Below, piece after piece: positions 2,075 to 27,115 of a stretch of 64,000 nt of DNA; position 1 is the stretch's first letter; each line of letters starts with the position of its first letter. The notes beneath the pieces were generated by a model. It was not told the origin of the DNA, did not search any database, and saw nothing but the letters and a program-made list of their open reading frames with translations. A program made the translations under genes and the position numbers. Origin of the DNA: an uncultured Eubacteriales bacterium (GTDB lineage: Bacteria > Bacillota > Clostridia > Christensenellales > Aristaeellaceae); the NCBI GenBank assembly GCA_900315315.1, contig OMYT01000007.1, positions 1-64,000 of the forward strand, written 5' to 3'.

Positions 2075-2327
2075 TTGAGCCAAGAAATTAATAATTTATT
2101 TCAAATAACGTTGACTTCAACAGAAAAAACAGTCACGTGAAATATGGCTTCTGTCTAAGTACTTTTTTGTCAACGCTTTTTTGATTATTAATTTAAAAAA
2201 ACATACCGCCACCATACCGCCAAGTGGAGAAATTCAAGCAACATTTTCCAAAATGAAAAATACAATAAACACGTGTTTTCATGAAAGAAAAAACTTGAAC
2301 AACAGTCCGCAAATCCCAATGGGATAA

Positions 2328-2348: not shown

Positions 2349-2351
2349 TTA

Positions 2352-2390
2352 AAAACCCTAGGAAAATCAACGTTCCTAGGGTTTTCATTT
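2352..2390 (+). terminator. Strong intrinsic terminator after the tRNA remnant
   Basis: A perfect 12-base stem (AAAACCCTAGGA at 2352-2363, TCCTAGGGTTTT at 2374-2385) is followed by CATTTT. It works in both directions on paper. Its position directly after a tRNA end fits the original terminator of that tRNA gene. Confidence 0.8.
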
Positions 2391-2532
2391 TGCCCTGTAC
2401 CCCAACCGTACCCCAACGGGAGGAAAAAAAAGGCCCCACTCTCAGACGAGAATGAAGCCCAAAAACAGAAAAAAACCAACACCAAAAAAAATCACAGGCT
2501 GCTGATATAAGCCTGCATGCGGGAACGAGACC

Positions 2533-3003: not shown

Positions 3004-3142
3004 AACGGATCAAGGGATTTTGCCTTCTTCACCATTAAGCTGGTATACTGTCTGTCATGTACAAAGTCAATGCTTCTGTTTCTGTTGTAACAGAGTCAAA
3101 TGTGAAGGACTCAGCATGAAATATTTTCAATGCTGTTTTTCG

Positions 3143-3171
3143 TTGCGCATTGGAAGAAGAACGGGTATAAT
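3143..3171 (+). promoter_or_regulatory. Sigma-A-type promoter of the PAP2 gene
   Basis: TTGCGC (3143-3148), a 17-base spacer and TATAAT (3166-3171) lie just upstream of the AGGAGG and ATG of the phosphatase gene. The predicted start of transcription, near 3178, leaves a leader of about 20 bases. Confidence 0.65.
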
Positions 3172-3198
3172 ACACGGAAAGAACAGGAGGGAAGACTT

Positions 3199-4134
3199 AT
3201 GGTAAACGGAAATGTATTTTACTTTGATTGGGAAGTTGATCTGATTGAATGGCTCCAGCAGAACATGGGAAAGATCGGGGAAACCGCGTCCAAAATCTTC
3301 TCCTATATCGGCGGCGAAACCATTTCACTGCTGCTGATCATTATTCTGGTGTTCTGTTATAAAAAGGAAGTGGGGAAACGGGTTTCCCTGACGGTTCTGA
3401 CGGCAAGCATGTGGTTCCCCATGATCAAGAATATCGTACTGCGGGTACGGCCCTATATGGCTCATCCGGACAAGGTCAAATGCCTGCAGGTGGTGGAGCC
3501 GGATGCAGACCCGATGGATATTGTCCAGCAGGGTTATTCATGCCCGAGCGGCCATGCCGCTACTTCGGCTGCCCTGTTCGGCGGCGTCGGGATGGAAGTA
3601 CGGAAACGCTGGATGTGGACACTGGCTATTGTGATGCCCCTGCTGATCGGCTTCAGCCGCTTTGCGGTCGGCGTGCATTATCCGACGGATGTGCTGGGAG
3701 GCTGGCTGGTCGGCCTGCTCGCGATCGGGTTCAACGTCCTGCTGAACAAGAAGGTTCAGAAGGAATGGTTGCGCTGTGTGATTCTCCTGGTGCTGTCGGT
3801 ACCCGGGATTTTCTGGTGCAACAGCCGGGATTACTATACCGCGCTGGGCCTGCTGATTGCGGCGACGATTGCTTTCCCCTTTGAGGCGAAATATGTCCGT
3901 TTCGAGGATACCCGGAATGTGTGGGCAATGATCCTGCGCAGTGTCGGTGCCTTTGCGATCTATTTTGCGCTGAACACGCTGCTGAAGATGCCCTTCAGCA
4001 AGGATTTCCTGAACAGCGGCGTGCTGGCGGCGAATCTGGTCCGGACGGCCAGGTATGCAATTATCCTGTTTGTGATCCTCGGGGTTTATCCGAAGGTGTT
4101 CCCGGTGTTTGAGAAGATCGGAAAGAAGAAATAA
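3199..4134 (+). CDS. PAP2-superfamily membrane phosphatase
   Basis: The ATG at 3199 follows AGGAGG by 8 bases; the 23 extra residues upstream overlap the promoter and are rejected. The 311-residue integral membrane protein carries the three PAP2 active-site motifs: KNIVLRVRP (motif 1), CPSGHAATS (motif 2) and SRFAVGVHYPTD (motif 3, with the catalytic His), between hydrophobic helices. Four to five more membrane segments follow motif 3, making it longer than minimal PAP2 enzymes. The family dephosphorylates lipid phosphates such as undecaprenyl pyrophosphate or phosphatidate at the membrane; the substrate here cannot be told. The stop codon runs straight into the repeat family described below. 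It appears to be a single-gene unit, perhaps cotranscribed with the pseudouridine synthase gene. Confidence 0.88.
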   Translation: MVNGNVFYFDWEVDLIEWLQQNMGKIGETASKIFSYIGGETISLLLIIILVFCYKKEVGKRVSLTVLTASMWFPMIKNIVLRVRPYMAHPDKVKCLQVVEPDADPMDIVQQGYSCPSGHAATSAALFGGVGMEVRKRWMWTLAIVMPLLIGFSRFAVGVHYPTDVLGGWLVGLLAIGFNVLLNKKVQKEWLRCVILLVLSVPGIFWCNSRDYYTALGLLIAATIAFPFEAKYVRFEDTRNVWAMILRSVGAFAIYFALNTLLKMPFSKDFLNSGVLAANLVRTARYAIILFVILGVYPKVFPVFEKIGKKK

Positions 4135-10056: not shown

Positions 10057-11895
10057 TCAGGAATTATTCGGAAAAACGTACGGATTGAACCCGTTCAATG
10101 CCATAACGAACCAGGCGGTTGGCGCAATGTGAGGCGTCGTTCCATATACCCAGGGAGATCCGTCAAACAGTTCGATACCCGTGGACAGATCCGGAACGGT
10201 GGCCGCGGGGAACAACCCGCTGTCCAGCTGAATGGATTCCAGTGCTTTCAGGGCTTCCTCCGCTAACCTGTTTTCTCCCCGCAGGCGATACATCAGAGCC
10301 GTGAAAGAAGTTCCTTCCGCCCACCAGCCGCCGTTGATGTTAGAAGCGCAGAAAGGATATCCGCCTTCCGGCAGTTTCATGCTTTCAACAATCTTCAGGG
10401 AATCTTCATAGGGGACGAATTCGTCTCCCAGCGCCATACAGGACCAGACCTGTGCGTCCAGCACGATGTTTTCCGTGCTGGGCGTTTTCCCGTCATTGGT
10501 CGTTCCCGTGAAGAACAGTCCCCGGTCCTGGTCATACAGGGACCGGATCAGTTCCAGCGCGCTTTCCGCAGCGTCCGCATATTTCTGCTCACCGGTACGC
10601 GCGTAAAGCTGCCGGAATGCAGCATAGGCATCGATATTATGCTCGATGGACTTGTAGGTGAAGACATAGGTCACATCCGGACCGCCCTCCGGCCACCCGT
10701 CATAGCCGCCTGTAAATCCGGGGGTCTCATCCCGGCAGTTTTCAATCACCCAGTCCATCAGGCGGGCGGCTGTTTGCAGATACCGTTCGTTTCCGTACAG
10801 CGCATCCGCCTGCAGCAGTGCCAGCGCAGCATAGGATGTATTGCCGACATTGCACCCGGTCTGATACCGGTCTTCAAACCATTCTCCGCTGTCCGCGTCA
10901 TACCAGCCGGGAAGCCGTGCCGCTCCGTCCCAACCCGGGAAGGCCGTAATATCCCCGGCAGCATAGGCATTCCGTATGCGTCCCGGCTGATACCGGTCGT
11001 TTTCCACCGCGTACACAAAGGAATCCAGCAGCTTTTCAGCTTCCTGCTGTTTTCCGGCCGAAAGAAACGCCATGGCTGTGAGCGCGTTATCATAGATATA
11101 AGCGGCATTCCGGATATAGATGTTGTCCGTGTCATAGGAGCGCAGCATCGGATGAGCGTCTCTTTCCGAAAAGTCTCCCGTGAAACGGATTTCATCCAGA
11201 TAGAACACGTTCTCACCCGTGCCGGATTTTTCGCCGAAGAGGGTATAACCGAAACCGCAGCAGATATTGCTCATGTCCACTCCGCGAAGATCGATGGTAT
11301 ACTCTGTCCATTCGGGAGTCAGCGTGATGTAGCCGAGGCTTTGCTTTTTTGCGCTGTCGTGAAAGGTTACGGTCGGCGTACCCCATTGCCCGTGGTATCC
11401 GAAACCGCAGGTAAAGAATTCAACCGTTTCCCCGCCGTTTGCCCCGCGGGCAAGGAAAGTCAGCGCTTCTGCCCCGGAAAGGTCCATTCCCTGACCGTCC
11501 GTGCTGCCGTCATTCAGGCGCGGAACCGATTCCCCTTCCGGAAGCCAGCCGTTCAGAAACAGCCAGCCGCCCCAGTCCGTCGGCACGGTGATCTGCGTGC
11601 AGCGGATACAGCTTTTACCAACAGCAGGGTTTTCCTGCCAGTTTTCATCCATATCCATGACCAGGGTAGCATCCCACCCGGCCATCTTTGCTTTCTGAGT
11701 AAAATGGTTTTCGGTATCCCCGAAGTCCCGGTAGACATAAATACGGCTGTATTGCTCCTTCAGCAAGGTTTCAAGCGCAGAAAGCGCATGGTCAGCCGCG
11801 GGCCGGAAGGCATCGTAGCCCGTTCCCTCCGCTGCAGCGGTTACGAGAACCATCGCCATGAACAGGGACAGCAACATGATCAGAATCTTCTTCAT
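10057..11895 (-). CDS. Secreted six-hairpin glycosidase-like protein
   Basis: Start at 11895 follows GGAGGGAGAGACGC; the 20-residue longer frame would place the ribosome binding site inside the gene. Residues 1-22 (MKKILIMLLSLFMAMVLVTAAA) are a signal peptide without lipobox. Residues about 45-235 look like a carbohydrate-binding jelly-roll (YTLFGEKS, NVFYLDEIRF at the end). Residues about 245-610 are alpha-helical with repeated Ala/Leu helices and aromatic loops (YIYDNALTAMAFLSAG, WVIENCR, YKSIEHNIDAYAAFRQL, WWAEGTSFTALMYRL, HIAPTAWFVMALNGFNPY), the pattern of an (alpha/alpha)6 six-hairpin toroid. Such domains are glycoside hydrolases or lyases; the exact family and catalytic residues are not assigned. 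It probably acts outside the cell on polysaccharide. Confidence 0.72.
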   Translation of the reverse strand: MKKILIMLLSLFMAMVLVTAAAEGTGYDAFRPAADHALSALETLLKEQYSRIYVYRDFGDTENHFTQKAKMAGWDATLVMDMDENWQENPAVGKSCIRCTQITVPTDWGGWLFLNGWLPEGESVPRLNDGSTDGQGMDLSGAEALTFLARGANGGETVEFFTCGFGYHGQWGTPTVTFHDSAKKQSLGYITLTPEWTEYTIDLRGVDMSNICCGFGYTLFGEKSGTGENVFYLDEIRFTGDFSERDAHPMLRSYDTDNIYIRNAAYIYDNALTAMAFLSAGKQQEAEKLLDSFVYAVENDRYQPGRIRNAYAAGDITAFPGWDGAARLPGWYDADSGEWFEDRYQTGCNVGNTSYAALALLQADALYGNERYLQTAARLMDWVIENCRDETPGFTGGYDGWPEGGPDVTYVFTYKSIEHNIDAYAAFRQLYARTGEQKYADAAESALELIRSLYDQDRGLFFTGTTNDGKTPSTENIVLDAQVWSCMALGDEFVPYEDSLKIVESMKLPEGGYPFCASNINGGWWAEGTSFTALMYRLRGENRLAEEALKALESIQLDSGLFPAATVPDLSTGIELFDGSPWVYGTTPHIAPTAWFVMALNGFNPYVFPNNS

Positions 11896-12156
11896 AAGCG
11901 TCTCTCCCTCCATTGCATAAGCTTTCGGTTGGTTCGTTTTGTCTGACTCAGTCAAAGAATGAAGGTGTGCCTCGTGAACAGAAACGCGTTTGGTTGTCCA
12001 TATCTCTATTTTACCATAAAGGTTGGCTGTTTGTATATCAATTCGGTGTGTTCAACAAAACGGAGCAGGGTATCAGACAGGATCCGGAGACCGGGGAATG
12101 CAGCAAGCAGCATCTCAAAGGGTGTCGAGCAGTATTTCATGACATTGTACGCACAT

Positions 12157-13047
12157 TTATACGCTGTGGATGAGGGTGACGGCGTCACGGATGTTGCGGA
12201 TTTCGATGAGATGTGCACCGTCGGCTTCCTCGCCGTCGAGGGTCCACTTCAGGTCCGGACTGCCTTCGAAGGTGAAACGGGAGGCCCGGAGAAAGCGCAG
12301 GGATGGGTTATCATAATGATGGGTCCGCAGGGCCGTCAGGATCTGGTTCAGGACGATGAGATCCGGCGGGAAGGGGATGAACAGAGCCTCGAAGAGGCCG
12401 TCATTCATATGGACTTCGCTGTTTTCCAACTTCAGGACGCCGCCGAGGGACGTTGAATTGCACACGGCGCCGAAGATATAATCATTTTCATACTGCTGAT
12501 CATCAGCAGTTATTTTCATGCGGATCGGATGAATATCCGCCAGGGAGCGGATACCTTCGAGAATATAGGCGGCATGGCCGAGAACATTTTTGACATTCTG
12601 CGGCGTAGACCAGGAAACGCTGGTAAAGGCTCCGAAGGAGGCGGTATAACAGAAATACCGGTCGGGAGAGAAGAGACCGATATCCAGCGTATGCGGACTG
12701 CCGGAAACGATGGCATGGGCTGCCTTGAGCGGCTGCGTCGGGAGACCGAGGCCGGAGGCAAAATCATTGGTGCTGCCACAGGGGATATAGCCGACGGGGA
12801 TCTTATACCCACCAAGCTGGAGGCCGGTGATTACTTCATTCAGGGTGCCGTCTCCGCCGCAGGCAACCACAAGGTCTGCGTTTCCGGTTTCATCGCGGGT
12901 GTAGTCTACGGCATCCCCGCGTTTCTCCGTTATAAAGACCGTACAAAGGAAGCCTGCCCGGTTAAAAACAGAAATGATCTCCGGGAGGAAACGGCGGCCC
13001 TGACGGGTGCCGGCGGTGGGGTTAATGACAAGGTGGAGTTTTTTCAT
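12157..13047 (-). CDS. Diacylglycerol kinase-family lipid kinase
   Basis: A 296-residue soluble protein of the DagK/YegS/LCB5 family. The N-terminal nucleotide-binding domain has VINPTAGTRQGRRFLPEI and the signature VVACGGDGTLNEVITGL (about residues 60-76), then GYIPCGSTNDFASGLGLP. The C-terminal beta-sandwich contains AVCNSTSLGGVLKLENSEVHMNDGLFE, with the conserved D-G-L end. It would phosphorylate diacylglycerol or a related lipid alcohol at the membrane surface. The start at 13047 has GGAGG seven bases upstream. It is divergent from the TIR gene set and has its own promoter region; I see no functional link. The 260 bases between its stop and the upstream start of the glycosidase gene contain no further gene. 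Confidence 0.9.
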   Translation of the reverse strand: MKKLHLVINPTAGTRQGRRFLPEIISVFNRAGFLCTVFITEKRGDAVDYTRDETGNADLVVACGGDGTLNEVITGLQLGGYKIPVGYIPCGSTNDFASGLGLPTQPLKAAHAIVSGSPHTLDIGLFSPDRYFCYTASFGAFTSVSWSTPQNVKNVLGHAAYILEGIRSLADIHPIRMKITADDQQYENDYIFGAVCNSTSLGGVLKLENSEVHMNDGLFEALFIPFPPDLIVLNQILTALRTHHYDNPSLRFLRASRFTFEGSPDLKWTLDGEEADGAHLIEIRNIRDAVTLIHSV

Positions 13048-13188: not shown

Positions 13189-14211
13189 ATGAAGAAGATC
13201 CAGCGCGGCTGCCCGCCATATGAGGGCAACGATCCATATCTCTATTTCTGTTTCGCGGAAAAAGACCGGGAAGCTGTGTTTCCGTTGCTTGAATATCTGT
13301 ATCTGCGCGGCGTGCGGATCTGGTATAACGTGGAAAATACAGCGGATATCCGGAAACTGAACCGGCAGCAGGAACGGATGAACAAGGCCACGCTGCTGAT
13401 TATCTATCTGACAGAAAACGCAAGAAACGACGAACGGGTCAAGACGTCCCTGCTGTATTATCAGCACGGCAAGCCGGTTATCGGCATCGACACGGACGAC
13501 GGAGATAACGAGCTGGCTTTCGGCATGACGGGCCGCGCGCAGCATGTGGACGGGCGGAACGGACGGAACCCGGAAGAACTGGAGGCAGACCTGATCCGGA
13601 CGGAAGGCTTCAGCCAGGAACTGATCGGCGATCCGCCGAACCGGATGAAGCTGCTGCTGAAGAAGGTGCTGAAGATCGTGGCGGTGGCAGCAGCGGTTGC
13701 GCTGATTGCCGTGACGCTGATCATCGGCAAACAGCAGTGGGGCTGGTTCCCGCCGCCTCCGACACCGACGCCGGTGCCGACGGCAACGCCGACGCCTACG
13801 CCGACACCGACGCCGACACCTACCCCGACACCCACGCCTACCCCGACACCCACGCCGACGCCTACCCCGACACCCACGCCGACGCCGACGCCGAGCCCGA
13901 CCCCGACGCCCACGCCGACACCGAGCCCGACCCCGACGCCCACGGTGATCCCGGATACCGTGTTCTTTGACGAACAATGGCTGACGGATGCGCTGCGGCA
14001 GACTGTGAGCGGCGTGCTGCTGACCGAAGAAAGCCTGGCAGAAGTCAAAAAGCTGGAGCTGGACAGGCTGCCGGCAGACCTTTCGGAACTGGACAAGCTT
14101 CCGAGCCTGGAGGTTCTGAGCATTCCCCAAAACCTGGCGGATGAGGCCGGCGAGATCATGGAGAAGGGCATCAGCATCGCGCTGCGTCCGGAGGGGAAGG
14201 GAACACCGTGA
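13189..14211 (+). CDS. TIR-like / membrane helix / Thr-Pro linker / LRR-remnant protein
   Basis: First of three tandem paralogues (340 residues). Residues about 15-120 are TIR-like: [21 protein letters not shown] (beta-A and alpha-A), [31 protein letters not shown] and [11 protein letters not shown]. The position of the catalytic glutamate in alpha-C is Thr here, so NADase activity is unlikely. Residues 161-182 form one hydrophobic helix preceded by KLLLKKVLK, so the N-terminus should be cytoplasmic. Residues 188-252 are a near-perfect Thr-Pro repeat. The last 88 residues contain a single leucine-rich unit ([31 protein letters not shown]) that matches parts of the large paralogue, so the LRR region seems reduced. 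It overlaps the next gene by four bases (GTGA), with GGAGGGGAAGGG at the junction: strong coupling. Confidence 0.82.
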
Positions 14212-15644
14212 CGGAGTTTTTCAAACCCTATGAAGGGACAAAGCCTTATCTTTTTGTCAGCTACAGCCACCGGGATACAGCCAAGGTTATCGATACGATC
14301 CGACCGATCCACGACATGCACTACCGCCTGTGGTACGACGAGGGAATCCCGGCAGGCAGCGACTGGCCGAGGAACATTGCGGTACACATGCGGGACTGCC
14401 GGATGGTCCTGTTCTTCCTGAGCAAGACAGCACTGGCTTCTCCGAACTGCCTGAGCGAGATTACCACGGCGGCGAAGCAGGGAAAGACAATCCTGCTGAT
14501 GAAGCTGGAAGACATTCTGATTGAAGAGACAAATGAAAAGTGGCAGGAGGCCCTGAAGAGCGCCGTTATCATCGAACCGGATGACGACGCGGCGGACCGC
14601 ACGCAGCACATTCTGAATTGCCCGCTGCTGACGGATGAATTCCTGGGTACAGAAGAAGACTTTGCCGACGACGGAAGCAGAAGCAATAAACGGAATATCC
14701 TGACGACCATCGCGATCATCCTGGCGGCTGTGCTGCTGATTGTCGCGATCGGTGGGTCGGTGGGGATTGTGACCGGACAGATTAACTGGTTTGTGACACC
14801 AACCCCGCCGCCGACGCCAACGCCGAGCCCGACACCGACGCCGACGCCGACACCAAGCCCGACACCGACGCCGACGCCCACACCTACGCCGACGCCGACA
14901 CCGACACCCACACCGACGCCGACGCCGAGCCCGACGCCGACACCCACGCCGACGCCGACCCCGAGCCCCACGCCGACGCCGACACCGACGCCAACGCCGA
15001 CACCAAGCCCAACGCCGACGCCGACACCGACCCCTGCACCGACCGTGCAGCCGACGGCGAACATTCCCGAAAGCGCGAAGGCGCTGTTCCAGAAGATGAT
15101 GGACTTCCCGGATGATCAGCAGGAGCGGCGAATCCGAGCTGTGCTGGATGCGGCGGACGGGGATATCCTGCAGGAAAGACTGCAGGAGATTACGGAGCTG
15201 TATTACGTGGGTACGATGAGCCCGAAGAGTACGAAAGGGCTTGAAATCGGAGAGGACGGAGCGGTTATGATGAACACCGTTCCCGTGAAGCAGGGGAAGG
15301 TGAAAGACCTCAGCCTGATTTATATGATGCCGAACCTGAAGCATCTGGCGCTTGTGAACCAGCCGGTCAGCGATATCAGCGGGTTAATGGATCTGGTGCT
15401 GCTGCTGGACCTGAACCTGGCAGCGACAGAGGTGAGCGACATCAGCGGACTGACGAACCTGCCGAGCCTGCAGACGCTGAACCTGGAACATACGAAGGTG
15501 AAGGATCTGACGCCGCTGTCACGGGTGAAGGAAGGAACGACGGAGAAGGAACTGCCGCTTTTGACCAAAGTGACGGTCAGCAAGGATATGCTGCCGCTTG
15601 AGCTGGACCCGGATGCAACGTATGAGGTTATATTAGTAAAATAA
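14208..15644 (+). CDS. TIR / membrane helix / Thr-Pro linker / LRR protein with catalytic-type TIR
   Basis: Second paralogue (478 residues, GTG start coupled to the previous stop). The TIR domain (residues 8-130) is the best conserved of the three: [61 protein letters not shown]. Glu84 in SPNCLSEI sits where NAD-cleaving TIR domains carry their catalytic glutamate. Residues 164-190 are a membrane helix preceded by RSNKR, indicating a cytoplasmic TIR; residues 197-279 are the Thr-Pro linker. Residues about 300-478 hold one leucine-rich module ([66 protein letters not shown]). The TIR fold would produce an NAD-derived signal when the outer LRR domain is engaged; this function is inferred. Confidence 0.88.
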
Positions 15645-15742
15645 GGGGGCTTTCCGATCGCCCCCTTAACCCCTTCGGACATAATGTTGGCTTTCTGAGT
15701 GCCCGGGGATACCGGGCGCGACGAACCCCCTGGATTCTTCGG
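15643..15742 (+). repeat. Two intergenic repeat copies between TIR genes
   Basis: A short copy begins at the TAA stop of the second TIR gene: AAGGGGGC / GCCCCCTT around TTTCCGATC, then AACCCCTTCGG (15643-15678). A second, long-type derivative follows (GGCTTTCTGAGTGCCC, CCGGGCGCGACGAACCCCC, ATTCTTCGG) up to 15742, directly abutting the GGTGGAGG ribosome binding site of the next gene. Confidence 0.85.
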
Positions 15743-15757
15743 TGGAGGTAGAAAACG

Positions 15758-18700
15758 ATGAACAAACCCTACAGCGGGAATTCGAAGCCTTTTGTGTTGG
15801 CGCTGTTCTCGGAGAAGGATACCGAGAAAGTGACGCCGGTGCTGGAAGCACTGGAGAAGAAAGGCCTGACGCTTTGCGGACAGGACGGGCACGCCACGGA
15901 GAAACAGGCGAAGAAGGCCTGCACGACGATTGCGTTCCTGTCGGAAAACTTTGCGAAGGATGAGCAAAAGCAACAGGTGTTCTTCACGGCGGACGCGGCG
16001 CGGATGCCGATCATCCCGGTGAAGCTGGACGACGCGAAGCAGCCGGAAGTGCTGGAACGGTCAATCATGGCGAAAAACGCGATTATGGCGGGACGCTACA
16101 GCACGGAAGAACTGGCTACGCGCATCGCCGGGGCAGAAAGCCTGAAGGCCCCGGCACTGACAAAAGCACAGAAGAACGGGAGCCGGCTGCGGCTGGGCGT
16201 GATCCTCGGTGTTGCAGTAATCGCGCTGGCCTTCGCGGGCCTGTATATCGCAGACCAGCAGATGGGCCTGGGCATCCTGATCCCGACGCCGACCCCGACG
16301 GCTTCACCGACGCCGACCCCGACGCCTACTCCGACACCCACACCTACACCGACGCCGACCCCGACGCCTACCCCCACACCGACGCCGACGCCGACCCCCA
16401 CGCCAACGCCGACACCGACACCTACTCCGACACCTACGCCAACACCGACCCCGACACCTACACCAACTCCGACACCAACCCCTACGCCGACGCCGACACC
16501 GAGCCCGACACCCACACCCATCGTGGACCCGCTGCTGACGGAGGCATACGGGTTTACGGACGGCGATCTGCAGAAAATCGAATGTATCGTGATCCTTGGC
16601 GACCGGTTTATGTATTACACGCAAGAAAACTGGCTTAATGAATACGGGCACTGGCCCAATGTTGACGATTTCGCGGAGCAGAGCTATCAGGCGGGAAACA
16701 CCAAATGGTACTCCAAGGAAGACGGCAGCGAGATACAAACCTACAAGTGGGACGATCTGAGCTTTCTTGCGCTGATGCCGAACGTCCACTCTCTGAACAT
16801 TACGCAGGCTGAGATCGGGAGTATACCGGATCTGCCTGATTCTGTATGGAAACAGCTGGAGAACGTGAGCATTCAGGACTGCACGCTGCGGGATCTGAAC
16901 TGGCTGAAGGGCAGCAATCTGCGGGAATTCCAGATCTGGGGTCCGCAGAACGACCTTGACCTGACACCGCTGAACGAATGCCCAAGATTAAACAATCTTT
17001 TCATCAGATTCGAAGACACGACCAACATTAACCTGTCCAGGCTTGCACCGAAGAAGCTGAAATATCTGCATCTGGACGCAGGTGCATTTCTGCGGGAAGC
17101 ACGGCTGGACGGACTGAAGGAATGCAGTGAGCTGCGGGAAGTGAGCCTGGACATGATCCCGCAGCTGCGAAGCATCGCTTTCCTGGAAGGAACCACCGGA
17201 CTGCAGCAGCTTCATCTCAGCAATCTCGGCATTTCCGACCTGAGTCCGATTGCGAACAGCAAGGGAAGCCTGTACAGCTTCCAGGCAGACGACTGCCGGA
17301 GTCTCCATGATTTCAGCCCTCTGGCGGAGTGCACCAATATGGTTGACATCCATCTGGGCGGATGGAGAGAATGGCGGGATGTATCCTTCCTATACAACAT
17401 GAAGGGGCTGAAAAGCGTAAGTATTTTCAGCGTGGATCTGCCAAACCTGGATTTCATTCAAAACATGAACCAGAGCGGGGAAGCGATCGGCGTGACCGTG
17501 CACGGAAGGGTTCGCGACTGGTCCGCACTGGCAGAGGTAAAGAATTATAACTATTTAGACCTTCGGTCAGATGACCGCGACTTCTCCCAAATTGCGCCGT
17601 ATCTGGAAGGGTGCAGCGTCCGAGAATTGACGTTAAATAATTTTGATAATCTTGATTTCACACAACTGCCGAAGGTGACCATTGAACTGCATATTCAGGA
17701 AGGGAACGGAAACCGCGACCTGAGCGGGATGACCGGGCTGACGGTGGGCAAGCTGACCCTGGAGGATCTGCAGGATCTGGAATCACTGAACGGCCTGGAG
17801 ACTGCCTTTGCGGATGGCAACCGCCCCCAGCTGGTGATTATGGGCTGTCCGCGGCTGACAGACTGGAGCGCGCTGGAGAAGAAGAAGCTGAGCTGGCTGA
17901 ACCTGACCGGTGTGTATACACTGCCGGACCTCAGCAAAGCCGAGATCTCCGGACTGCGGCTGGAAGGCCTGGACTGGATCGAGGATCTGAGTATCCTGGA
18001 CGGGCTGGACGCGAAGCAATATTACAGCAGCATCGAGCTGGCTGCCTTGCCGGTGACGATCGACATCTCCCCGGTGCGCAGGCTGCAGGGAAACATCCTG
18101 AAGGTGCAGCCGGAATTCCGGGAACTGGCCCAGTCCATCGTGGATGAGGGACGGTTCTACCGCCTGGAGATCGAGTATCCGGAAGGCGGATGGGAACCCT
18201 GGAACGGAGAAGTGAAGCTGAAGAACCTGGAGGAACTGGACCGGCTGCCGATCGCAGCGCTGAAGCATGTGAAAAACCTGGCACTGGCCGGGGACCGGAT
18301 CGTGGACTGGGACAAATATGATCTATGGGAGCGGTGGGACAACGACCGCCGTCACATGATCCTTTACGACAAGGAAACGGATGAGGAGATTCCGGTCCAG
18401 ACCGGAACGCTGACCGATCTCACCCGGCTTCAGAACCTGACCGGACTGGAAGAACTTGAGATCTGCGAACAGCCGCTGACGAGCCTGGAAGGCATCGACG
18501 GGATGCTGGATCTGCGGAGAATTAACCTGAAGTGCTGCTATCAGCTGGAGGACATTTCCAAAATGTTCACGCTGGAAAAGATTCAGCAGATTGAACTGAT
18601 CAGCGCTCCCGTCCATTCCATCCAGGGAATCCAGAATCTGTCGTCGCTGCGGAAACTGGCACTGCACCAGACGGAGGTAACGGATCTCTCCCCGCTGGCG

Positions 18701-21331
18701 GAATGCGACCTGACGGAAGCATACAGGGAGGACGGGCTGACACTGGAAATGTATGGCGGAGACCCGATCGATGCGACGCCACTGGAGAGCATCCGGAAGT
18801 TTGACAATGTGCAGACAAGCAACGACTGGTATCCCGGATGGCTTGCGCACATGCAGAACGCGGAAGTCAACACCCTGAACATGAACGATTTCCATGATAA
18901 GCAGATCACCGATCTGACATTCCTCGGGAGTGTGAAGGTGCGGAACCTGCGGATTGACAGTTTCCCGTATCTGAAGTCCCTGCACGGACTGGAGGAAATG
19001 CTGGAAGACGGATGCCTTGAGCAACTGGAGATTCTGGGCTGCCCGCGGCTGGCGGATTTCAGCGCGCTGGAAGGAAAACGGCTGGAGCAGCTGTGGTTAT
19101 ACGGGACCTATACAGTGCCGGAAATGACGAACCTGGATATTGGGACCCTGCGATTGGAGCAGCTGGACTGGGTTACGGATCTGGGCATTCTGGACAGCCT
19201 GCCGGAAGACAAGGAGATCAGCCTCGAGCTGGCACAGATGGAGCAGCTGAAGGATCTGAGTCCGCTGAAACGACTGAAGGCAGGGAAGCAGATTGCCGTA
19301 CCGGAGAACCTGCTGACGCAGGCGAAGACGCTGGTCAGGAACGGAAGCTTCCAGGGGGCTTCGATCGCGGACGAGGACGGCTGGGGCGTGAGCGACAGAA
19401 ACTTCAGCCTGCAGAGCTGGGAGGAGCTGGACGAGCTGCCGGACAGCGTGCTGGCCCGGATCGAGAGCATTTACCTGGCCGGAGACACGCTGTATGACGG
19501 CAGCCAGTACGACATCAACGAAGAATGGGACTGGAACGGACAGAACAATATCCGGACCCTGATGCTGCATCATTTTGACACGGACAGCCGGACACCCGTC
19601 GAAACGGGCACGATGAAGGATCTGAGCAGGCTGAGCCGGATGACGGGGCTGAAGGAACTGGTGATCTGCTGCCAGCCGCTGACCTCGCTGGACGGCATTG
19701 AGAATATGACGAAACTGGAGCGGGTTGAGATCCAGCAGGCACCGGGAATGAAGGATATCGGGCCGCTGCAAGGGCTGGAAAACCTGCAATGGCTGACGCT
19801 GCGGGAGATCGGGGCGGAAGATTACAATGCGCTCGGGAAACTGAAGAAACTGCAGGAGATCAGGCTGTATGACGACATGAAGGATATCTCGTTCCTTAGG
19901 GATTTGGATTTCAGCCACGCATATCAAAACGGCGGCCTAAGCCTGTATCTGAATACAGTGGATGAAACCGACCTGAGCCCGTTGGATGGTATTCGGGAAT
20001 ATGACTGGCTGCAGCTGGACGGGGGCAAGGCAAACTGGCTGCAGCATGTACAGAACGCGAAGGTGCGCCAGCTGACGATCAACGACATAAATGAAGAATT
20101 CACGGCGGATATGCTGCCGGAAGTGACGGAACGGCTGGAATTCCACAGCGTGAGGAAACTGAAGGATCTGAACGGGCTGAAAGGTCCGGGACCGAGAACG
20201 ATCCAGCTGGACAGCCTGCCAGCGATGATAAGCCTGAAGGGATTGGAGAGCCTGGACAACCTGCGGGAACTGGAACTTTGCAGCCTGCCGAAACTGACGG
20301 ACTGGAGCGCGCTGGACGGAAAGAAGCTTGATTCCATCAAGGTATGCGGCAATATGGTCTTCCTGCCGGAGGAACTGAAGCAGCAGGTGCAGCAGGCGGA
20401 GCAATGGGACGGCTGGTGGAACAACAACGCGGACTTCCAGGCGGACAGCATCGAAGAACTGCAGAGTCTGCCGGACGAACTGCTGGCAAGCATAGAGCGG
20501 CTGCAGATCTTCGGGGACCAGGTATACGACTGGGACAATTACGGCCTGGATAACCGGTGGGATGACAAGAAGAGAAAAGATGTTCCTTATCTGAATGACT
20601 ACGAGACCGGGGAGGAAACTCCGCTGGAGCCGGGTACGGGGATCGACCTGAGCTTCCTGAACAAGATGACGGGGCTGAAAGAACTGATCCTCGGCGCTCA
20701 GCCGATCACGGATCTGGAGGCTGTGCGGCCACTGAAGCAGCTGAACTATCTGAACGTGAAATTCTGCGAGAACCTGCAGGATATTTCCGCCGTGGCGGAT
20801 CTGCCGGAGCTTGAGCGGCTGAGCCTGGAATTGTCGGGAATCAAGTCGATCGAGGGAATCGGCGGGTTGAAGAAACTGAAGGAGTTGAACCTTAACGGGA
20901 CGGACATCACAGACCTGAGCCCGCTGAATGAATGTGACTTTTCCTACGGCGAGGAGAACGGAGGAATTAATCTCCAGCTCGGCATAGACACACAAAAAAC
21001 CAAGGACTGGTCTGTACTGGAAAAAATCAGGAATTATGAGTGGCTTAATCTGAACAATGCAGACGCCAAAAAATGGATGGAGCATGTCAGCGGCGCACAG
21101 ATCAGGGGCATTTTTAACAACGGATTCAAAAACCAGAAGCAATTTGAGGAATTCCTGGACGCCCATCCGGAGATTGAGCAACTGCATATCCAGTGGGATC
21201 AGCAGATCACGGATCTTACGAAAGTGCTAGAACTTCCGAATCTCCGCTATCTGAGGATTTCCAACAATATGAAGAAGGCAATCAAGAGCCTGGAGGGGAA
21301 GGAGTATTCTTTCCAACTGGAAATTGAATAA
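15758..21331 (+). CDS. Giant TIR-like / Thr-Pro linker / multi-LRR surface protein
   Basis: Third paralogue, 1857 residues. Residues about 9-120 are a diverged TIR-like domain ([46 protein letters not shown]); the catalytic glutamate position is Val. One membrane helix (about 146-167) follows KNGSRLR, so the N-terminus should be inside. Residues 176-254 are the Thr-Pro linker. The remaining 1600 residues are leucine-rich repeats of the LxxLxLxxTxVxDLSPL type (internalin-like), organised in four large super-repeats, each opening with LxxIxxxxxxGDxxYDxxxY-WD (near nucleotides 16560, 18244, 19435, 20466) and followed by [27 protein letters not shown]. No LPxTG or S-layer anchor is present; the N-terminal helix is the only anchor. 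ATG 15758 has GGTGGAGG 9 bases upstream. Confidence 0.87.
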
Positions 21332-21333
21332 AT

Positions 21334-21364
21334 CAGGGGGGCCGATCGCCCCCTGAACCTCTTC
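21334..21364 (+). repeat. Intergenic repeat with shortened loop
   Basis: CAGGGGG...CCCCCTG stem around a core that has lost most of the TTTCC (GGCCGATCG remains), then AACCTCTTC. It follows the stop of the giant LRR gene by two bases. Confidence 0.75.
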
Positions 21365-21411
21365 AACAATATGTTTTTTGATTTAGAAGAAATGAGATAC
21401 GAGAAAAAAGT

Positions 21412-23010
21412 ATGAAAAACGAAAACAAAATTCCGTTGTTGGTCGGGGTGACCGGACATATTGATCTGCGGGAAGCAGACCGGGATGCACTGCTGCAGGC
21501 GGTGATAGGTGAACTGAAGAGACTGCGGGAAACATATCTTCACACGCCGCTGAAGATGCTGAACAGCCTGGCGGCGGGTGCGGATCTGCTGTGCGCGGAT
21601 GTTGCGGAGGCACTGGGAATTCCGCTGATCGCGGCTCTGCCGATGGAGACAGCCGAATATGAGAAGGACTTCAGCCCGCAGGAACTGGAACACTTCCGTC
21701 ATCATCTGAGCCGGGCGGAGAGCGTATTTGTCGCGCCAGGCGCGGAAGCGGAAACGGGAGAAAGACGAGACTTCGCCTACCGGCAGGCCGGGATCTATGT
21801 AGTGGAGCACGCGCATCTGCTGCTGGCCCTGTGGGACGGGAAAGAGAATCCCTCGGCCCGGGCAGGGACGGCAGCCACGGTGGAATTTGCGCTGAAAGGA
21901 AACTGGGAACCGGAACAGGGGATCCCGGTCAGTTCCGCCGGGAATACGGCGGTGATCCATATCCTGACGCCGAGACGGGACATGCCGGCGGAAGGCGCAG
22001 GGGAAACCCGGAGAATCGCGGATGAGGAAATGTGGGATACCCTGATGGCCCGAACCGAGGAATTCAATATACTGGCAGCTGAAATACCGGAGGCAGAGGA
22101 ACATATGCTGCCTGAATCGGATGAGAGCGATGCTGTGCTTCAACAGCTGGAAGCCCTTTACAACGCAGCAGACAAACTCAGCCTGCAATTTGCCCGGCAG
22201 TTTCGCAAGGCTCTGGCGATGCTGGCGCTGGCCGGGACGGTGCTGACCTTTGCCTTCCTGCTGTACGACGAGGGAAGCATGGTCCCGATGATCCTGGTAT
22301 GCGGCGCGGCACTGCTGTACGCTTTTTACTGTTACCGGCAGACCACAAAGAGCGAATGCCACCGGAAGTATATCGAATACCGGGCACTGGCGGAAACACT
22401 GCGGGTCCAGATGTATCTGCGCTACGCGGGCAGCCGGCTCGAGGTTCAGCGGCTGATGAACTGGAGCCAGCAGCAGGAGACCGCGTGGATTCTTTGCACC
22501 ATCTGCGCATTGAACGGGGCTCCGCAGCCGGAGAAAAAGCGGGATATTCTGAACTGCTGGGTGGAAGAACAGAGGAACTATCATTGCCAGGCCGGGAAGA
22601 AGACTGCCGGTCAGCTGGAAAAGAATGACAGGGTGCTGGGGATCGCCATGAAGATCAGCATCCTGACCTATGTGGTCACCCTGATCTACGAGTTTTTATT
22701 TGGCGGGCTGGGTTTACGGCCTCTGGTGTCCCTTCGCGATCCGGAGCAAGGCCGGACGCTGATCAAAATCGTGCTGGGGACACTGTCCGCCGGTACGCTG
22801 TTCATGGCAAATTATTACGGGAAGATGAGCCTGCGGCGCGTTACGACAGACCACGCAAAGATGGCAAAATTCTATGAAAAAGCAGCGGATCAACTGACCC
22901 GCTGCGGACAGAATGAGCATATTCTGGAGGCGTTGGCCCGGGAAGAACTGGCAGAGAACGGAAACTGGTGTTCCTACCAGAAAGATAACGCGCCGGAATT
23001 AAATTTTTAA
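21412..23010 (+). CDS. SLOG-domain protein fused to SLATT-like membrane domain
   Basis: A 532-residue protein 80 bases after the TIR/LRR set, same strand. Residues 8-190 look like a SLOG-type Rossmann fold: LLVGVTGHIDLREAD (nucleotide-loop region), KMLNSLAAGADLLCADVAEALGIPLIAALPM, VVEHAHLLLALWDG. SLOG domains bind or process nucleotide signals; the SLOG domain of Thoeris ThsA senses a TIR-made ADP-ribose isomer. Residues 264-310 are two membrane helices followed by KYIEYRALAETLRVQMYLRYAG, the helical motif typical of SLATT (SMODS/SLOG-associating 2TM effector) domains. Two further hydrophobic segments lie near residues 410-430 and 450-468. SLATT proteins are thought to form pores that kill the cell. 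Sensor plus pore makes it the likely effector of the TIR proteins (inference). Confidence 0.8.
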   Translation: MKNENKIPLLVGVTGHIDLREADRDALLQAVIGELKRLRETYLHTPLKMLNSLAAGADLLCADVAEALGIPLIAALPMETAEYEKDFSPQELEHFRHHLSRAESVFVAPGAEAETGERRDFAYRQAGIYVVEHAHLLLALWDGKENPSARAGTAATVEFALKGNWEPEQGIPVSSAGNTAVIHILTPRRDMPAEGAGETRRIADEEMWDTLMARTEEFNILAAEIPEAEEHMLPESDESDAVLQQLEALYNAADKLSLQFARQFRKALAMLALAGTVLTFAFLLYDEGSMVPMILVCGAALLYAFYCYRQTTKSECHRKYIEYRALAETLRVQMYLRYAGSRLEVQRLMNWSQQQETAWILCTICALNGAPQPEKKRDILNCWVEEQRNYHCQAGKKTAGQLEKNDRVLGIAMKISILTYVVTLIYEFLFGGLGLRPLVSLRDPEQGRTLIKIVLGTLSAGTLFMANYYGKMSLRRVTTDHAKMAKFYEKAADQLTRCGQNEHILEALAREELAENGNWCSYQKDNAPELNF

Positions 23011-23040
23011 GGAGCTTTCCGACAGATTCGGACTCTTCGG
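23011..23040 (+). repeat. Degenerate intergenic repeat between convergent genes
   Basis: GGAGCTTTCCGACAGATTCGGACTCTTCGG follows the TAA of the SLOG gene in thirty bases and ends exactly at the stop of the convergent HD gene. The core and CTTCGG end are kept; the stem is eroded. Confidence 0.7.
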
Positions 23041-25089
23041 TTAATCTTTCCCGAGCTGGTAGATCCGCAGACCGTCATATTTGCGGAGAAGCTTCAGCAT
23101 GCTGTTGAAGGGGAGCCAGTCCTTGCCCTGGTCTTCCGGGGAGAGCGTCTCATAATGAGACAGGATCTCTTCTTCGGAAGCATCGATGTTCAGGGTCAGC
23201 TTATGGCGGCGAAGCTGCTCGCGGAGAGCTTTGCGCTCAGCTTTCTCTTTCTCCTTGGGCCCAAGAATGAGCAGCGTCTCGTATTCATCGCCATACCGCC
23301 AGCCTGCGAGCTGATGATCCCGAACCCAGCGGGCATGTTCCATGGGAGCGAAGACGCTGGTCATTTCAGAAGTGAACGCTTTCAGAACATCAAAGTCTAC
23401 GGGTTTATCTGTATAGAAGCAATCAATGACATTCAGATAGCGGGCGAAGCTGCGGACCTGGTTGATATTCAGAAGCTTATATTCCAGAGAAAGTTCGTTA
23501 AACTCCTTCTCAAGCTGCTCAACGGGAATTTCATCCTCACGGCCCTGATAGTTATAGCGGGCATTGAGTGCAACGGCAAAGTCGTAAATGTGCAGGAAGC
23601 TGCTGTTGGACAGATAGGTATGCTTGACTTTCCTGTTTACGGGCTTCAGATCCGAATCCACATAAAGCGGGAAGCCGGTAAGATCCACGATGCTTTCAAT
23701 ATCTTTGCGGAAACGCTGTTCCTTGGCGGCGGTATCACTGTAATCCTTGAGGCGAGGGGCTTTGGATCCGTCGTTTTTTTCTTCCCAGGCAAAGTATTCT
23801 TTCCAGAAATCGTGGATTTTCTTCTTTTCCTCTATGTCATAGTGATAGACGCTGTGAATGGAGTTATGGGAGAAGTGGAAATCAGCGCCCAGGGGATGCA
23901 GCTCAGTGCGGGAGTTGCGGCCGTAAGCGGTTCTGTCCCAACATTGCAGTTCATCGCAGAGCATCAGGAGCCAGGCTAAAGGATGGAGTTCCTTTTTAAA
24001 GGGATCTTTTTTCTTTTCAGGATCCTTATAGAAGGCAATCGCGAACTTATACAAACTGTTGTGCAGCATGATCGCTGTCAAAGCGTCCACATGGGCGTTG
24101 GTCAGATCTCCCGTATCCGGCAGGGAAACCATTTCCTGATAAAGCCGGCAAGCGCTGAAGAAGGCATGATCCATGAAATAACCATTTTTCTCCGGATGAG
24201 TCGGCTTGCTCTCAATGACTTTGAGCAGACGGCTTTCGGAGATTCTGTACGCCTTGCCAAGATGCAGGAAGATTCCGTGGGCCAGAAGGTCACATACGGA
24301 AGAAAAACGGCGACCATACAGGACTTCCAGCCGATCGTTTTCTTTATCGGCGATGGCCGTGAACTGTTCCAGATCATGGTAGGCAATATAGAGGAGACCG
24401 GGCGCCCTCTTCTTCCGATCGATTTCGAAGTAGGAGATGACCTGTTCGAAGGGAATCTCGAAGGGATAACCGATATCATGGAACAGGGCAGTCAGCCCCC
24501 AGAACTTCAGGAAGAAGGCTGCAGCGGCCGGACCGTCATCCGGATCAAGCGCATAGAAATTGATAAATGCTTTCCGGAAATCAGCATACATCTCATAAAT
24601 CGCCAGACCCAGGGCAAAGACATAGACCGAGTGAGAGTAATGATCCCGGTGCTTCATGAGCAGGGAGGAAGCATTGGATTCGAACTCGGAGAGAAGCTCC
24701 ACCATGCTCTGGGAACGGCCGTATTCGCCAACGAACATTTCCAGGTAAGCATAATAAACGGTATAGGCATCTTCCGCCACGCCGGAATCGATGAACTTGC
24801 CGAGTTCATTTTTCAGGCAGAGCCGGTCGATATCCATCTGCATATTGTAGGGAATCTGGTTCGGGCAGAGAGAAGTGCCAAGGTACTGACCGGTCTCCTC
24901 TTCCTCCTTCTCCTTTTCAGCGCTGAAGCGCAGACCCACGCAGCGTTTTTCCAAAAAACGAAGGGCAGCCGACTTAAGGTCTGTGCCTGTTTCTTCGTCG
25001 GGGAATAACGGCGGAGGGAAGGGACCGATGTCAGTGTGGAAACGCTCGGCATTCTTTTGTCTCATGGCTTCGATGGCGGTGTAACTCAT
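23041..25089 (-). CDS. HD-domain protein with C-terminal RyR domain
   Basis: Start at 25089 has AAAGGAG seven bases upstream; the frame extends further but only through repeat sequence. The 682-residue protein has an HD-type hydrolase core: His in DHYSHSVYVFAL (about 153), the HD pair in ALFHDIGYPFE (204-205), LLAHGIFLHLG, and Asp in PLAWLLMLCDELQCWDR. HD enzymes cleave phosphate or nucleotide esters. Near residues 580-601 the sequence MEHARWVRDHQLAGWRYGDE is a clear RyR (ryanodine-receptor-repeat) motif, a domain that in bacteria accompanies TIR, SLOG and SLATT proteins and is thought to recognise nucleotide-derived ligands. It converges on the SLOG gene with 30 bases between stops. It may degrade or sense the TIR signal; that is inference. 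No membrane segment. Confidence 0.78.
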   Translation of the reverse strand: MSYTAIEAMRQKNAERFHTDIGPFPPPLFPDEETGTDLKSAALRFLEKRCVGLRFSAEKEKEEEETGQYLGTSLCPNQIPYNMQMDIDRLCLKNELGKFIDSGVAEDAYTVYYAYLEMFVGEYGRSQSMVELLSEFESNASSLLMKHRDHYSHSVYVFALGLAIYEMYADFRKAFINFYALDPDDGPAAAAFFLKFWGLTALFHDIGYPFEIPFEQVISYFEIDRKKRAPGLLYIAYHDLEQFTAIADKENDRLEVLYGRRFSSVCDLLAHGIFLHLGKAYRISESRLLKVIESKPTHPEKNGYFMDHAFFSACRLYQEMVSLPDTGDLTNAHVDALTAIMLHNSLYKFAIAFYKDPEKKKDPFKKELHPLAWLLMLCDELQCWDRTAYGRNSRTELHPLGADFHFSHNSIHSVYHYDIEEKKKIHDFWKEYFAWEEKNDGSKAPRLKDYSDTAAKEQRFRKDIESIVDLTGFPLYVDSDLKPVNRKVKHTYLSNSSFLHIYDFAVALNARYNYQGREDEIPVEQLEKEFNELSLEYKLLNINQVRSFARYLNVIDCFYTDKPVDFDVLKAFTSEMTSVFAPMEHARWVRDHQLAGWRYGDEYETLLILGPKEKEKAERKALREQLRRHKLTLNIDASEEEILSHYETLSPEDQGKDWLPFNSMLKLLRKYDGLRIYQLGKD

Positions 25090-25100
25090 AAGCAACTCCT

Positions 25101-25227
25101 TTCGCGCTTCCGGCGCGACCAGGGCTTTCCGATCACCCTGGATCTTCGATATTAGTAATAGAGGCTCTGCACTTGCTGTGCGGGCGGAATTCAAAGAGCT
25201 TTCCGATCACCCTTTGGAAACCTTCGG
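25101..25227 (+). repeat. Two intergenic repeat copies in a divergent promoter region
   Basis: First copy (25101-25148): CGCGC-TTCC-GGCGCG hairpin, then CCAGGGCTTTCCGATCACCCTGG and ATCTTCG. Second copy (25191-25227): CAAAGAGCTTTCCGATCACCCTTTGG, AAACCTTCGG. Both keep the same orientation as all others in the window although they lie upstream of both flanking genes, in the leader of the HD-RyR gene read antisense. Confidence 0.8.
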
Positions 25228-25379: not shown

Positions 25380-27113
25380 TTGAGACACTGGATGAAATAC
25401 ATCAAGCCATACAAGGCATGGTTCATTCTGGGGCCACTGTGCATGATTATCGAGGTTGCGGGCGAGATGTTCATGCCGCTGCTGCTGGCGAAGGTGATTA
25501 ACGCGGGCAATGCCGGTACACTGACAATCGGCTCCAGCATTGGGACCGCCGGACTCCTGATCGCGATCGCGCTGATCATGATGGCGGGCGGCATCGGCGG
25601 ATGCTATTACGCCGCGAAAGCGAGCATCGCATTTGCCGGCGATATCCGAAACGACCTGTACCGGAAGATCCAGAGCTTTGCTTTCGGTAACATCGACCGG
25701 TTCTCTACGGGGTCGCTGGTGACGCGGGTGACCAACGACGTGACCCAGGTTCAGAACTTCGTGATGATGGTAATGCGGATGGCGCTGCGGGCGCCGGGCA
25801 TGATGATCGGCGGTCTGATCATGGCGATCCGGCTCCGCTCAGACCTGGCGATTGTTTTCCTGATCAGCATTCCGGTACTGCTATTGTTTGTGGGCGGGAA
25901 CATTTTGAGAGGCTTTCCCCGCTTCAAGATCATGCAGGAGAAGGTTGACGGATTGAACTCCACCGTACAGGAAAATATCACAAATGTCCGTGTGGTGAAA
26001 TCCTTCGTACGGGAAAAGGATGAAACGAAGAAGTTCGGAAAGGCCAACGGCGATCTGAAGAACGCCGCGATGCGCGCAATGCGGGTGGTCATTTTCATGC
26101 AGCCGATCACCACGTTGGTTTTGTATGCTACGGTGATCGCGGTCGGCTGGAAGGGACATGCGCTTGTTTTGAACGGTGAAATGGCGGTCGGTGACCTGGC
26201 GGCTTTCATCAACTATGTGATCCAGATTCTGATCTCCCTGGTCATGATCACTTTCCTGCTGATGTTCTCCTCCCGGGCGCTGGCGAGTGGCAAGCGCATC
26301 ATCGAGGTGCTGGAGGAGGAGCCGGACCTGAATGACGACAAGGCGCAGCAGAAGGAACTAACCGTGAAGTACGGCGCGATCGAATTCCACCATGTTTCTT
26401 TCCGCTATTACAAGAACAGCGAGGACAGCGTGCTGGACGATATCAACCTGACGATCCAGCCGGGGAGCACGGTGGGTATCATCGGGTCAACCGGCTGCGG
26501 AAAGAGTACGCTGGTATCGATGATCCCGCGGCTGTATGACCCGGATGAGGGCGAGATCCTCGTGGACGGCGTGAACGTGAAGGACTACAGCCTGTATAAC
26601 CTGCGGGAAGGCGTGGGCATGGTGCTGCAGAAGAACGTGCTGTTCTCCGGGACAATTGCCGAAAACCTGCGCTGGGGCGATGAAGACGCGACAAACGAAG
26701 AGATGATCGCCATGGCGAAGGCAGCCCAGGCGGACAAGTTTGTCTCCACCTTCAATGAGGGATATGAAACGCAGCTGGACAAGGGCGGAAACAACCTTTC
26801 CGGCGGACAGAAGCAGCGCCTGTGCATTGCCCGGGCCATGATGAAAAAACCGAAGATCCTGATTCTGGACGACTCCACCTCCGCCGTGGACACGGCGACG
26901 GAGGCACAGATCCGTCATGCCTTTACGCATGAACTGGCGGGCAGCACGAAGATCGTGATTGCTCAGCGGATCAATTCCGTGATGGATGCGGACCAGATCA
27001 TTGTGATGAACGAAGGAAAGATCACCGGCATCGGGACGCATGAGGAACTGCTGGAATCCAACACGGAGTACCAGGAAATTGCCGAGTCCCAGCTGGGCAG
27101 GAAGGGGGCGTAA
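25380..27113 (+). CDS. ABC exporter half-transporter, degenerate ATP site
   Basis: A 577-residue type IV ABC exporter subunit: six membrane helices in residues 10-310 (YIKPYKAWFILGPLCMI onward), then the ATPase domain with Walker A GSTGCGKST (about residue 370), Q-loop MVLQKNVLFSG, signature LSGGQKQRL, Walker B ILILDDSTSAVD and switch IAQRI. The residue after the Walker B aspartate is Asp instead of the catalytic Glu, and the switch His is Gln (IAQR), so its own ATP site is degenerate. The next gene supplies a normal site; such pairs form asymmetric heterodimers (BmrCD/TM287-288 type) exporting drugs, lipids or peptides. The start may be TTG 25380 or ATG 25392; neither has a strong ribosome binding site. 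Confidence 0.9.
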   Translation: MRHWMKYIKPYKAWFILGPLCMIIEVAGEMFMPLLLAKVINAGNAGTLTIGSSIGTAGLLIAIALIMMAGGIGGCYYAAKASIAFAGDIRNDLYRKIQSFAFGNIDRFSTGSLVTRVTNDVTQVQNFVMMVMRMALRAPGMMIGGLIMAIRLRSDLAIVFLISIPVLLLFVGGNILRGFPRFKIMQEKVDGLNSTVQENITNVRVVKSFVREKDETKKFGKANGDLKNAAMRAMRVVIFMQPITTLVLYATVIAVGWKGHALVLNGEMAVGDLAAFINYVIQILISLVMITFLLMFSSRALASGKRIIEVLEEEPDLNDDKAQQKELTVKYGAIEFHHVSFRYYKNSEDSVLDDINLTIQPGSTVGIIGSTGCGKSTLVSMIPRLYDPDEGEILVDGVNVKDYSLYNLREGVGMVLQKNVLFSGTIAENLRWGDEDATNEEMIAMAKAAQADKFVSTFNEGYETQLDKGGNNLSGGQKQRLCIARAMMKKPKILILDDSTSAVDTATEAQIRHAFTHELAGSTKIVIAQRINSVMDADQIIVMNEGKITGIGTHEELLESNTEYQEIAESQLGRKGA

Positions 27114-27115
27114 GC

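Follow-up and report, generated by a model that had tools for sequence, protein, structure and literature searches.

What common process could place three membrane-anchored TIR proteins beside a SLOG-bearing membrane protein and an HD-RyR protein? The question is raised by five adjacent genes, here called A to E, in a 64,000-nucleotide stretch of DNA (the window; contig OMYT01000007.1, assembly GCA_900315315.1) from an uncultured Eubacteriales bacterium, whose draft genome measures 4.26 Mb, is 89% complete, and includes the window in its contig C77. An initial annotation made from the letters alone had proposed a surface receptor system in which TIR domains and leucine-rich repeats (LRR) signal to SLOG-SLATT and HD-RyR partners. 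We find that the five-gene set recurs in related genomes, including those of gut Clostridia, and that, of its three TIR proteins, B alone appears equipped for catalysis. Our working interpretation, held tentatively and just short of probable, is a surface-sensing TIR signalling operon in which A, B, and C would be receptors, B the signal maker, D the reader and effector, and E a binder or eraser of the signal.

The TIR assignment is most direct for B, which matches Pfam TIR_2 at 6.9e-13 (49.6 bits), over the curated cut-off of 28; A (1e-3, 20 bits) and C (5.8e-3, 17.6 bits) fall below it. Profile comparison with hhalign, whose E-values are pairwise and not database values here, links all three (probability 99.0 for A-B, 94.3 for C-B, and 97.4 for C-A). 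In the alpha-C motif column that holds the catalytic glutamate, the residue is present in 19 of 19 B proteins, within the motif SPNC/SHNC-x-SE, compared with 0 of 8 aligned C proteins and 1 of 21 A proteins. The exception, L074|3, has mixed A-like and B-like stretches and was counted in the A row with its glutamate; L079|8 scored as B and was counted as A. Inspection by eye of a wider set of 26 C proteins likewise found the glutamate not present. Judged from these alignments, A and C are pseudo-TIRs, and B alone keeps the TIR catalytic glutamate. Given that A and C lack this residue, the three TIR receptors cannot all be counted as signal makers, and the TIR signalling that the initial annotation assigned to all of them narrows to B. 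Such a division of labor has precedent in staphylococcal Thoeris, where, according to excerpts of PMC12578639, one TIR protein of the ThsB1/ThsB2 pair binds the trigger and recruits the other.

A single clear membrane helix is predicted in each of A, B, and C, in the window and in the scored orthologues. LRR_4 matches B and C (Table 1), and the Pfam scan of A returned no LRR match; by our own reading, the 89-residue tail of A leaves room for one or two repeats at most. The Thr-Pro linker is long only in near relatives, with 66-80 Thr or Pro among the 101 residues after the helix in the window versus 5-28 in most other proteins, and on this comparison it is not a defining part of the system. 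The three tandem proteins originally described therefore keep their TIR domain, helix, and domain order, but A has hardly any LRR and the long linker belongs to close relatives. Matches of A to C to PADLOC PD-T4-6 and to NCBIfam TonB/GltJ lie in the linker and were discounted as low-complexity matches; long antisense open reading frames (ORFs) across the linkers were rejected as shadows of the repeats.

Lysine and arginine counts before and after the helix are 5 and 1 in A, 3 and 0 in B, and 4 and 0 in C of the window, and among the orthologues, 17 of 19 B proteins and 21 of 25 C proteins have an excess before the helix. From this charge bias and the domain layout, we infer that the TIR domain lies inside and the LRR outside, an arrangement resembling a Toll-like receptor (one helix, with TIR and LRR on opposite sides) in reversed domain order. 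Between the window and genome G038, C is 67% identical in its ectodomain and 91% in its TIR domain; the corresponding values are 80% and 91% for A and 80% and 85% for B, and D and E are 79% and 84% identical. C is duplicated or triplicated in L061, L071, L073, L092, and L109, and six pairs of paralogues from single loci share 57-100% identity over TIR plus helix and 38-45% over the ectodomain. The L073 pair is 100% identical in the former and 39% in the latter. C thus diverges fastest in the part predicted to lie outside the membrane, as expected of receptors.

D joins a SLOG domain to helices of SLATT type, a domain reportedly named in a founding survey by Burroughs in 2015. Because single-protein profiles are too weak for D and E, family alignments were used for both. 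Window D alone matches DUF4231 at 0.0038 (18.1 bits, cut-off 24.7) and SLATT_3 at 1e-3 (19.1 bits, cut-off 45), and no SLATT profile in Pfam or NCBIfam exceeded its cut-off for D. Across the 26-member family, Pfam finds YAcAr, a YspA-type SLOG, in 20 members at E-values of 1 or below (best 6.8e-6) and DUF4231 in 25. The structure model of D (predicted local distance difference test, pLDDT, 88; predicted template modeling score 0.87) contains predicted helical hairpins, and its sole Foldseek match under 1e-3 in the PDB is the SLOG protein YpsA (2.6e-5); the SLOG of BcThsA with 3'cADPR, a cyclic ADP-ribose (cADPR), follows at an E-value of 0.11 and a probability of 0.94. A PDB profile match to KtrA covering 38 residues and low-probability Foldseek matches to ABC transporters were not used. 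The description of D as a SLOG plus SLATT-like protein is borne out. Excerpts of PMC9503650 present YpsA-like SLOGs as sensors of cADPR variants and SLATT as a predicted ADP-ribose-gated effector and, with excerpts of PMC7159879, place TIR, SLOG, and SLATT in conflict systems.

The E family was examined in an alignment of 38 members (A4), comprising 36 of 79 usable E proteins plus window E and the distant L048. Window E matches the RyR family (PF02026) at 0.092 (13.4 bits), below the cut-off of 27.4, and 26 of the 38 members match at E-values of 1 or below, with the best value in L048 (1.8e-11); E from an A-B-C-E-D operon in G120 exceeds the cut-off (2.1e-13, 50.7 bits). Residues of HD type (H185, H239, D240, H343, H378, and D414) are invariant in all 38, as are H620, W623, and D692 of the RyR domain. 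The latter align with residues of the bacterial RyR 6uag, with the spacings of H75, W78, and D117 in RyDEP, a phage RyR-domain glycosidase that cleaves cADPR signals according to excerpts of PMC13232231. Since the RyR domain of E keeps the RyDEP catalytic pair, E may bind or destroy the TIR signal; it could bind, cleave, or be gated by the messenger. By analogy with RyDEP, as portrayed in those excerpts, the clearing role suggested for E in the initial annotation has gained support.

Linkage was assessed from a profile search of named genomes with E, which returned 310 relatives; locus counts refer to the best 80 of these 310. All five genes occur together in 11 of the 80 E loci, in the order E-A-B-C-D or A-B-C-E-D, so the convergence of D and E in the window is an unusual arrangement. 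In the window, A and B overlap by 4 nucleotides; of the 18 loci having both genes, 17 show this overlap. Over 297 genomes of the order, drawn evenly, a profile of A matched 24 genomes, 7 of them at E<1e-50 and the others at 2.4e-17 or weaker. All 7 strong-A genomes are among the 31 that contain E (hypergeometric 7e-8), and all 7 also hold D; in three of them, E is only 28-32% identical. Conservation of the set excludes chance for the five-gene observation. The two observations on which the initial annotation staked itself have come out in its favor: TIR, SLOG, and RyR have profile matches (SLOG and RyR via family members), and the neighborhood is conserved in relatives.

A TIR gene lies within 3 kb of E in 49 of the 80 loci and anywhere in the locus in 51, and a TIR gene or D is present in 62. 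Of the 54 loci whose flanks reach 3 kb or more on each side, 39 have a TIR gene within 3 kb of E against about 0.004 expected (79 TIR_2 matches in 45 genomes of the genus), a comparison that treats loci as independent, sets an iterated profile against TIR_2, and gives an order of magnitude only. Within the genus, TIR_2 matches in 11 of 11 genomes with E and 17 of 34 without (Fisher 0.003). D is found in 29 of the 80 loci, five or six of these copies being without SLOG. When D alone was searched in 100 relatives, 9 genomes matched, one partially. The other 8 have a full-length D, and in 6 of them (G000, G021, G012, G015, G044, and G013) E is its neighbor; E lies 37 kb from D on the same contig in G038 and on a different contig in G068. 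In G038 (contig C16; L036 and L021), E is in two pieces in different frames, 37 kb from A-B-C-D, and purine-catabolism-like genes stand beside D. Weak and strong TIR_2 matches in neighboring frames at G012:C3:114073-115445 are possibly an A-B pair away from E-D.

Beyond the five-gene set, no partner is shared as widely as E; several other types of TIR gene have no D beside them. Pfam scans of 10 E-linked TIR proteins found WD40, LRR_5, TPR, or weak GH88-like parts, the LRR_5 and WD40 repeats following an N-terminal TIR domain and a helix. At one genomic site, between a YegS-like gene and an ABC transporter, G000 carries A-B-C-D-E and G016 carries E with a TIR-LRR_5 gene. Among 20 divergent loci (from 25 further E genomes, leaving out G166, G229, G322, G256, and G313), 10 encode an HD-RyR protein that continues into a C-terminal SLOG, and these fusions tie E to the sensor domain of D. 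They measure ~735-790 amino acids (L164-L172, L174), and in several loci stand beside a 610-730-amino-acid protein with two or three predicted membrane helices, one copy of which (L170) was scanned and had no Pfam match. In L064, L065, L083, L088, and others, the TIR protein beside E carries a WD40 propeller after its membrane helix, and a TIR-TIR-TPR protein follows E in L178:345-9419, L138, L104, L110, and others. In G316, E, a TIR-TIR-TPR protein, a protein kinase, and D stand in succession; 8 of the 80 E loci have a member of a recurrent kinase-like family. L084:12139-15603 encodes a 1154-amino-acid protein with a TIR domain, membrane helix, PT repeat, and weak GH88-like C-terminus.

These features can be arranged into a candidate mechanism. 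A, B, and C would each span the membrane, the TIR domain facing inward and the LRR outward, and an external ligand would be met by C, together with the small tails of A and B. Assembly of the receptor would enable B to make an ADP-ribose-type messenger from NAD+, A and C serving as pseudo-TIR scaffolds. The SLOG of D would read the messenger, upon which the SLATT-like hairpins of D may open or disturb the membrane; E would bind or break down the messenger with its RyR domain, and its HD part may hydrolyze the product or another nucleotide. More specifically, and more doubtfully, the set is possibly a heteromeric surface immune receptor with one catalytic and two pseudo-TIR subunits, a nucleotide messenger, a SLOG-gated membrane effector, and a RyR off switch, E being a shared hub for exchangeable TIR receptors (LRR, WD40, LRR_5, and TPR).

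Several observations weigh against this scheme. The charge bias behind the proposed orientation, which the initial annotation read from basic residues before all three helices, holds for most B and C orthologues, but A has more lysine and arginine before the helix in only 10 of 19 orthologues (equal in 6, fewer in 3), and by net charge window B (-2 before, 0 after) goes the opposite way. A conserved catalytic glutamate is not proof of NADase activity (excerpts of PMC7075850). Of the two domains attributed to E, RyR stands, whereas HD is the weakest domain call: Pfam HD matches 8 of 38 members (best 0.013), NCBIfam adds nothing beyond one HDIG match at 0.13, and the E model (pLDDT 83) has no Foldseek match under 0.001 in the PDB. 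A histidine at the position of RyDEP H100, the phosphate histidine, was not found in E, the second half of that alignment reaching only 8.4 bits. Finally, neither TIR nor D occurs in 18 of the 80 E loci, D occurs without TIR in 11, and TIR without D in 33, the flanks often being short; of 13 genomes checked, some of them incomplete, 6 lack D.

The absence of D from some loci bears on whether E, rather than D, is the main effector, its RyR domain sensing the TIR product and switching on an HD hydrolase that destroys a nucleotide pool, with D an optional second effector. E is kept where D is missing (the 33 TIR loci above; G004, G016, G036, and G047 have E and no D), and its metal-type HD residues are invariant in 38 of 38. 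The 80 loci were, however, found via E, which is present in them by construction; D is found in 7 of 7 genomes of the A-B-C type, and the RyR residues of E match a signal-cleaving enzyme. We regard this alternative as rather unlikely. Equally concerned with roles is the reading that the parts work as described in cell-surface, community, or predator sensing (contact, envelope damage, protozoa) and not in phage defense. The sensors would face outward, the flanks are stable and common to G000, G038, and G016, and mobile elements hardly ever carry E (none of 72,556 plasmid records and 1 of 50,697 phage records, with 1 confirmed viral contig). The known association of TIR, SLOG, and SLATT with conflict systems, in the excerpts cited above, speaks for defense, and the patchy occurrence of E (31 of 297 genomes) and fast ectodomain divergence suit an arms race. 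We consider a non-phage role distinctly unlikely. A relative of E, 34% identical over 95% of its length, lies at MT836912.1:3916-6195, in an 8.3-kb unannotated phage record from human feces.

Many animal TIR domains are scaffolds. That fact, along with the loss of the catalytic glutamate from two of three TIR domains here, would fit TIR domains that only assemble and pass a conformational signal to D, with no enzyme activity. We consider this improbable: the glutamate of B and its surrounding motif are invariant in 19 of 19 proteins, and the constant partners are of nucleotide-reading type (SLOG, RyR). It is less probable still that the LRR halves are cytosolic, the helix being an anchor or false call and the proteins internal phage sensors. 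Known bacterial TIR systems do sense internal phage proteins such as the capsid (excerpts of PMC12578639), and the charge bias of A is weak; each scored orthologue, however, has a single strong helix, B and C show the bias, and proteins with WD40, LRR_5, and GH88-like C-terminal parts share the layout.

The surface-sensing TIR operon that we favor is built from known components and therefore belongs with NAD-derived TIR signalling systems. Like Thoeris, it would pair a TIR enzyme with a SLOG-bearing effector, and two-TIR Thoeris versions exist (ThsB1/ThsB2; excerpts of PMC12578639); unlike Thoeris, its TIRs are predicted membrane receptors with LRR, D combines SLOG with membrane hairpins, and an HD-RyR partner is present. 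Pfam found no SIR2 or macro match of ThsA type in the D or E families, and PADLOC Thoeris models gave nothing better than 0.05 (ThsB at 0.054 for B and 0.058 for A; no ThsA). D resembles SLOG-SLATT conflict-system proteins, predicted signal-gated effectors in the excerpts of PMC9503650 and PMC7159879, but has two hairpins and an operon with TIR receptors and HD-RyR. With RyDEP, E shares the PF02026 domain, and it has invariant residues aligned with the catalytic His and Asp and the adenine-stacking Trp of RyDEP (excerpts of PMC13232231); RyDEP is a phage protein, whereas E is a host protein with an HD part and no H100 counterpart.

Animal Toll-like receptors are likewise single-span proteins with LRR and TIR on opposite membrane sides, as we infer here, but in A to C the TIR comes first, the LRR is internalin-like, and the TIR of B is probably enzymatic; the likeness is one of layout, not shown descent. 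To our knowledge, the bacterial TIR systems characterized to date detect phage components within the cell. If the outward orientation is correct, the operon would represent a bacterial pattern-recognition layout close to that of Toll-like receptors, in which a host-encoded RyR enzyme may end the signal and the catalytic subunit, messenger reader, and candidate eraser can each be named to the residue. New here are the way the receptors are laid out, the combination of one catalytic-type TIR with two pseudo-TIRs, and a partner of HD-RyR type. If surface sensing is shown, the system would be more than a variant of the known kind. In agreement with the initial annotation, a literature search found no account of TIR-membrane-LRR receptors together with SLOG-SLATT and HD-RyR proteins, in a collection that lacks the founding SLATT survey and the majority of subscription papers.

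Table 1. Coordinates of the five genes and their predicted parts in the window.
Feature	Coordinates	Strand	Basis
A: predicted pseudo-TIR, membrane helix, Thr-Pro linker, short tail; 340 aa (amino acids)	13189..14211	+	ORF, Pfam, hhalign to B; without catalytic Glu
A: membrane helix, residues 161-179	13669..13725	+	hydropathy 2.76
B: TIR with catalytic Glu (SPNCLSE), membrane helix, Thr-Pro linker, LRR; 478 aa	14208..15644	+	TIR_2 6.9e-13, LRR_4 1.4e-9
B: membrane helix, residues 164-182	14697..14753	+	hydropathy 2.95
B: predicted ectodomain with LRR	15042..15641	+	Pfam, identity comparison
C: predicted pseudo-TIR, membrane helix, Thr-Pro linker, long LRR ectodomain; 1857 aa	15758..21331	+	LRR_4 1.2e-23, 9 stretches; hhalign to B and A
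C: membrane helix, residues 146-164	16193..16249	+	hydropathy 2.57
C: predicted LRR ectodomain, fastest-diverging part	16520..21328	+	Pfam, identity comparison
D: SLOG plus SLATT-like membrane protein; 532 aa	21412..23010	+	Pfam, NCBIfam, structure model, Foldseek
D: SLOG domain, about residues 1-205	21412..22026	+	YAcAr 20/26 members; Foldseek YpsA 2.6e-5
D: predicted membrane part, two helical hairpins with long helices, residues 241-532	22132..23007	+	model; SLATT_3/DUF4231
E: HD-RyR protein, start as in orthologues	23041..25089	-	family alignment, Pfam
E: HD-type region, residues 183-421	23932..24648	-	invariant H/HD/H/H/D 38/38; Pfam HD weak
E: RyR domain, residues 597-717	23044..23406	-	Pfam, invariant residues, alignment to 6uag

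The ORF of E spans 23041-25194 on the minus strand, and the starts of its orthologues correspond to the ATG at 25089, the position at which the initial annotation also ended the system. The set is flanked on the left by a YegS-like lipid-kinase gene (12157-13047) and on the right by what is presumably, from its sequence, an ABC transporter pair (25380-29083). Farther to the left, the gene at 10057-11955 has a weak GH88 match, and positions 1-4000 have a G+C content of 38-45%, compared with ~55% in the remainder of the window.

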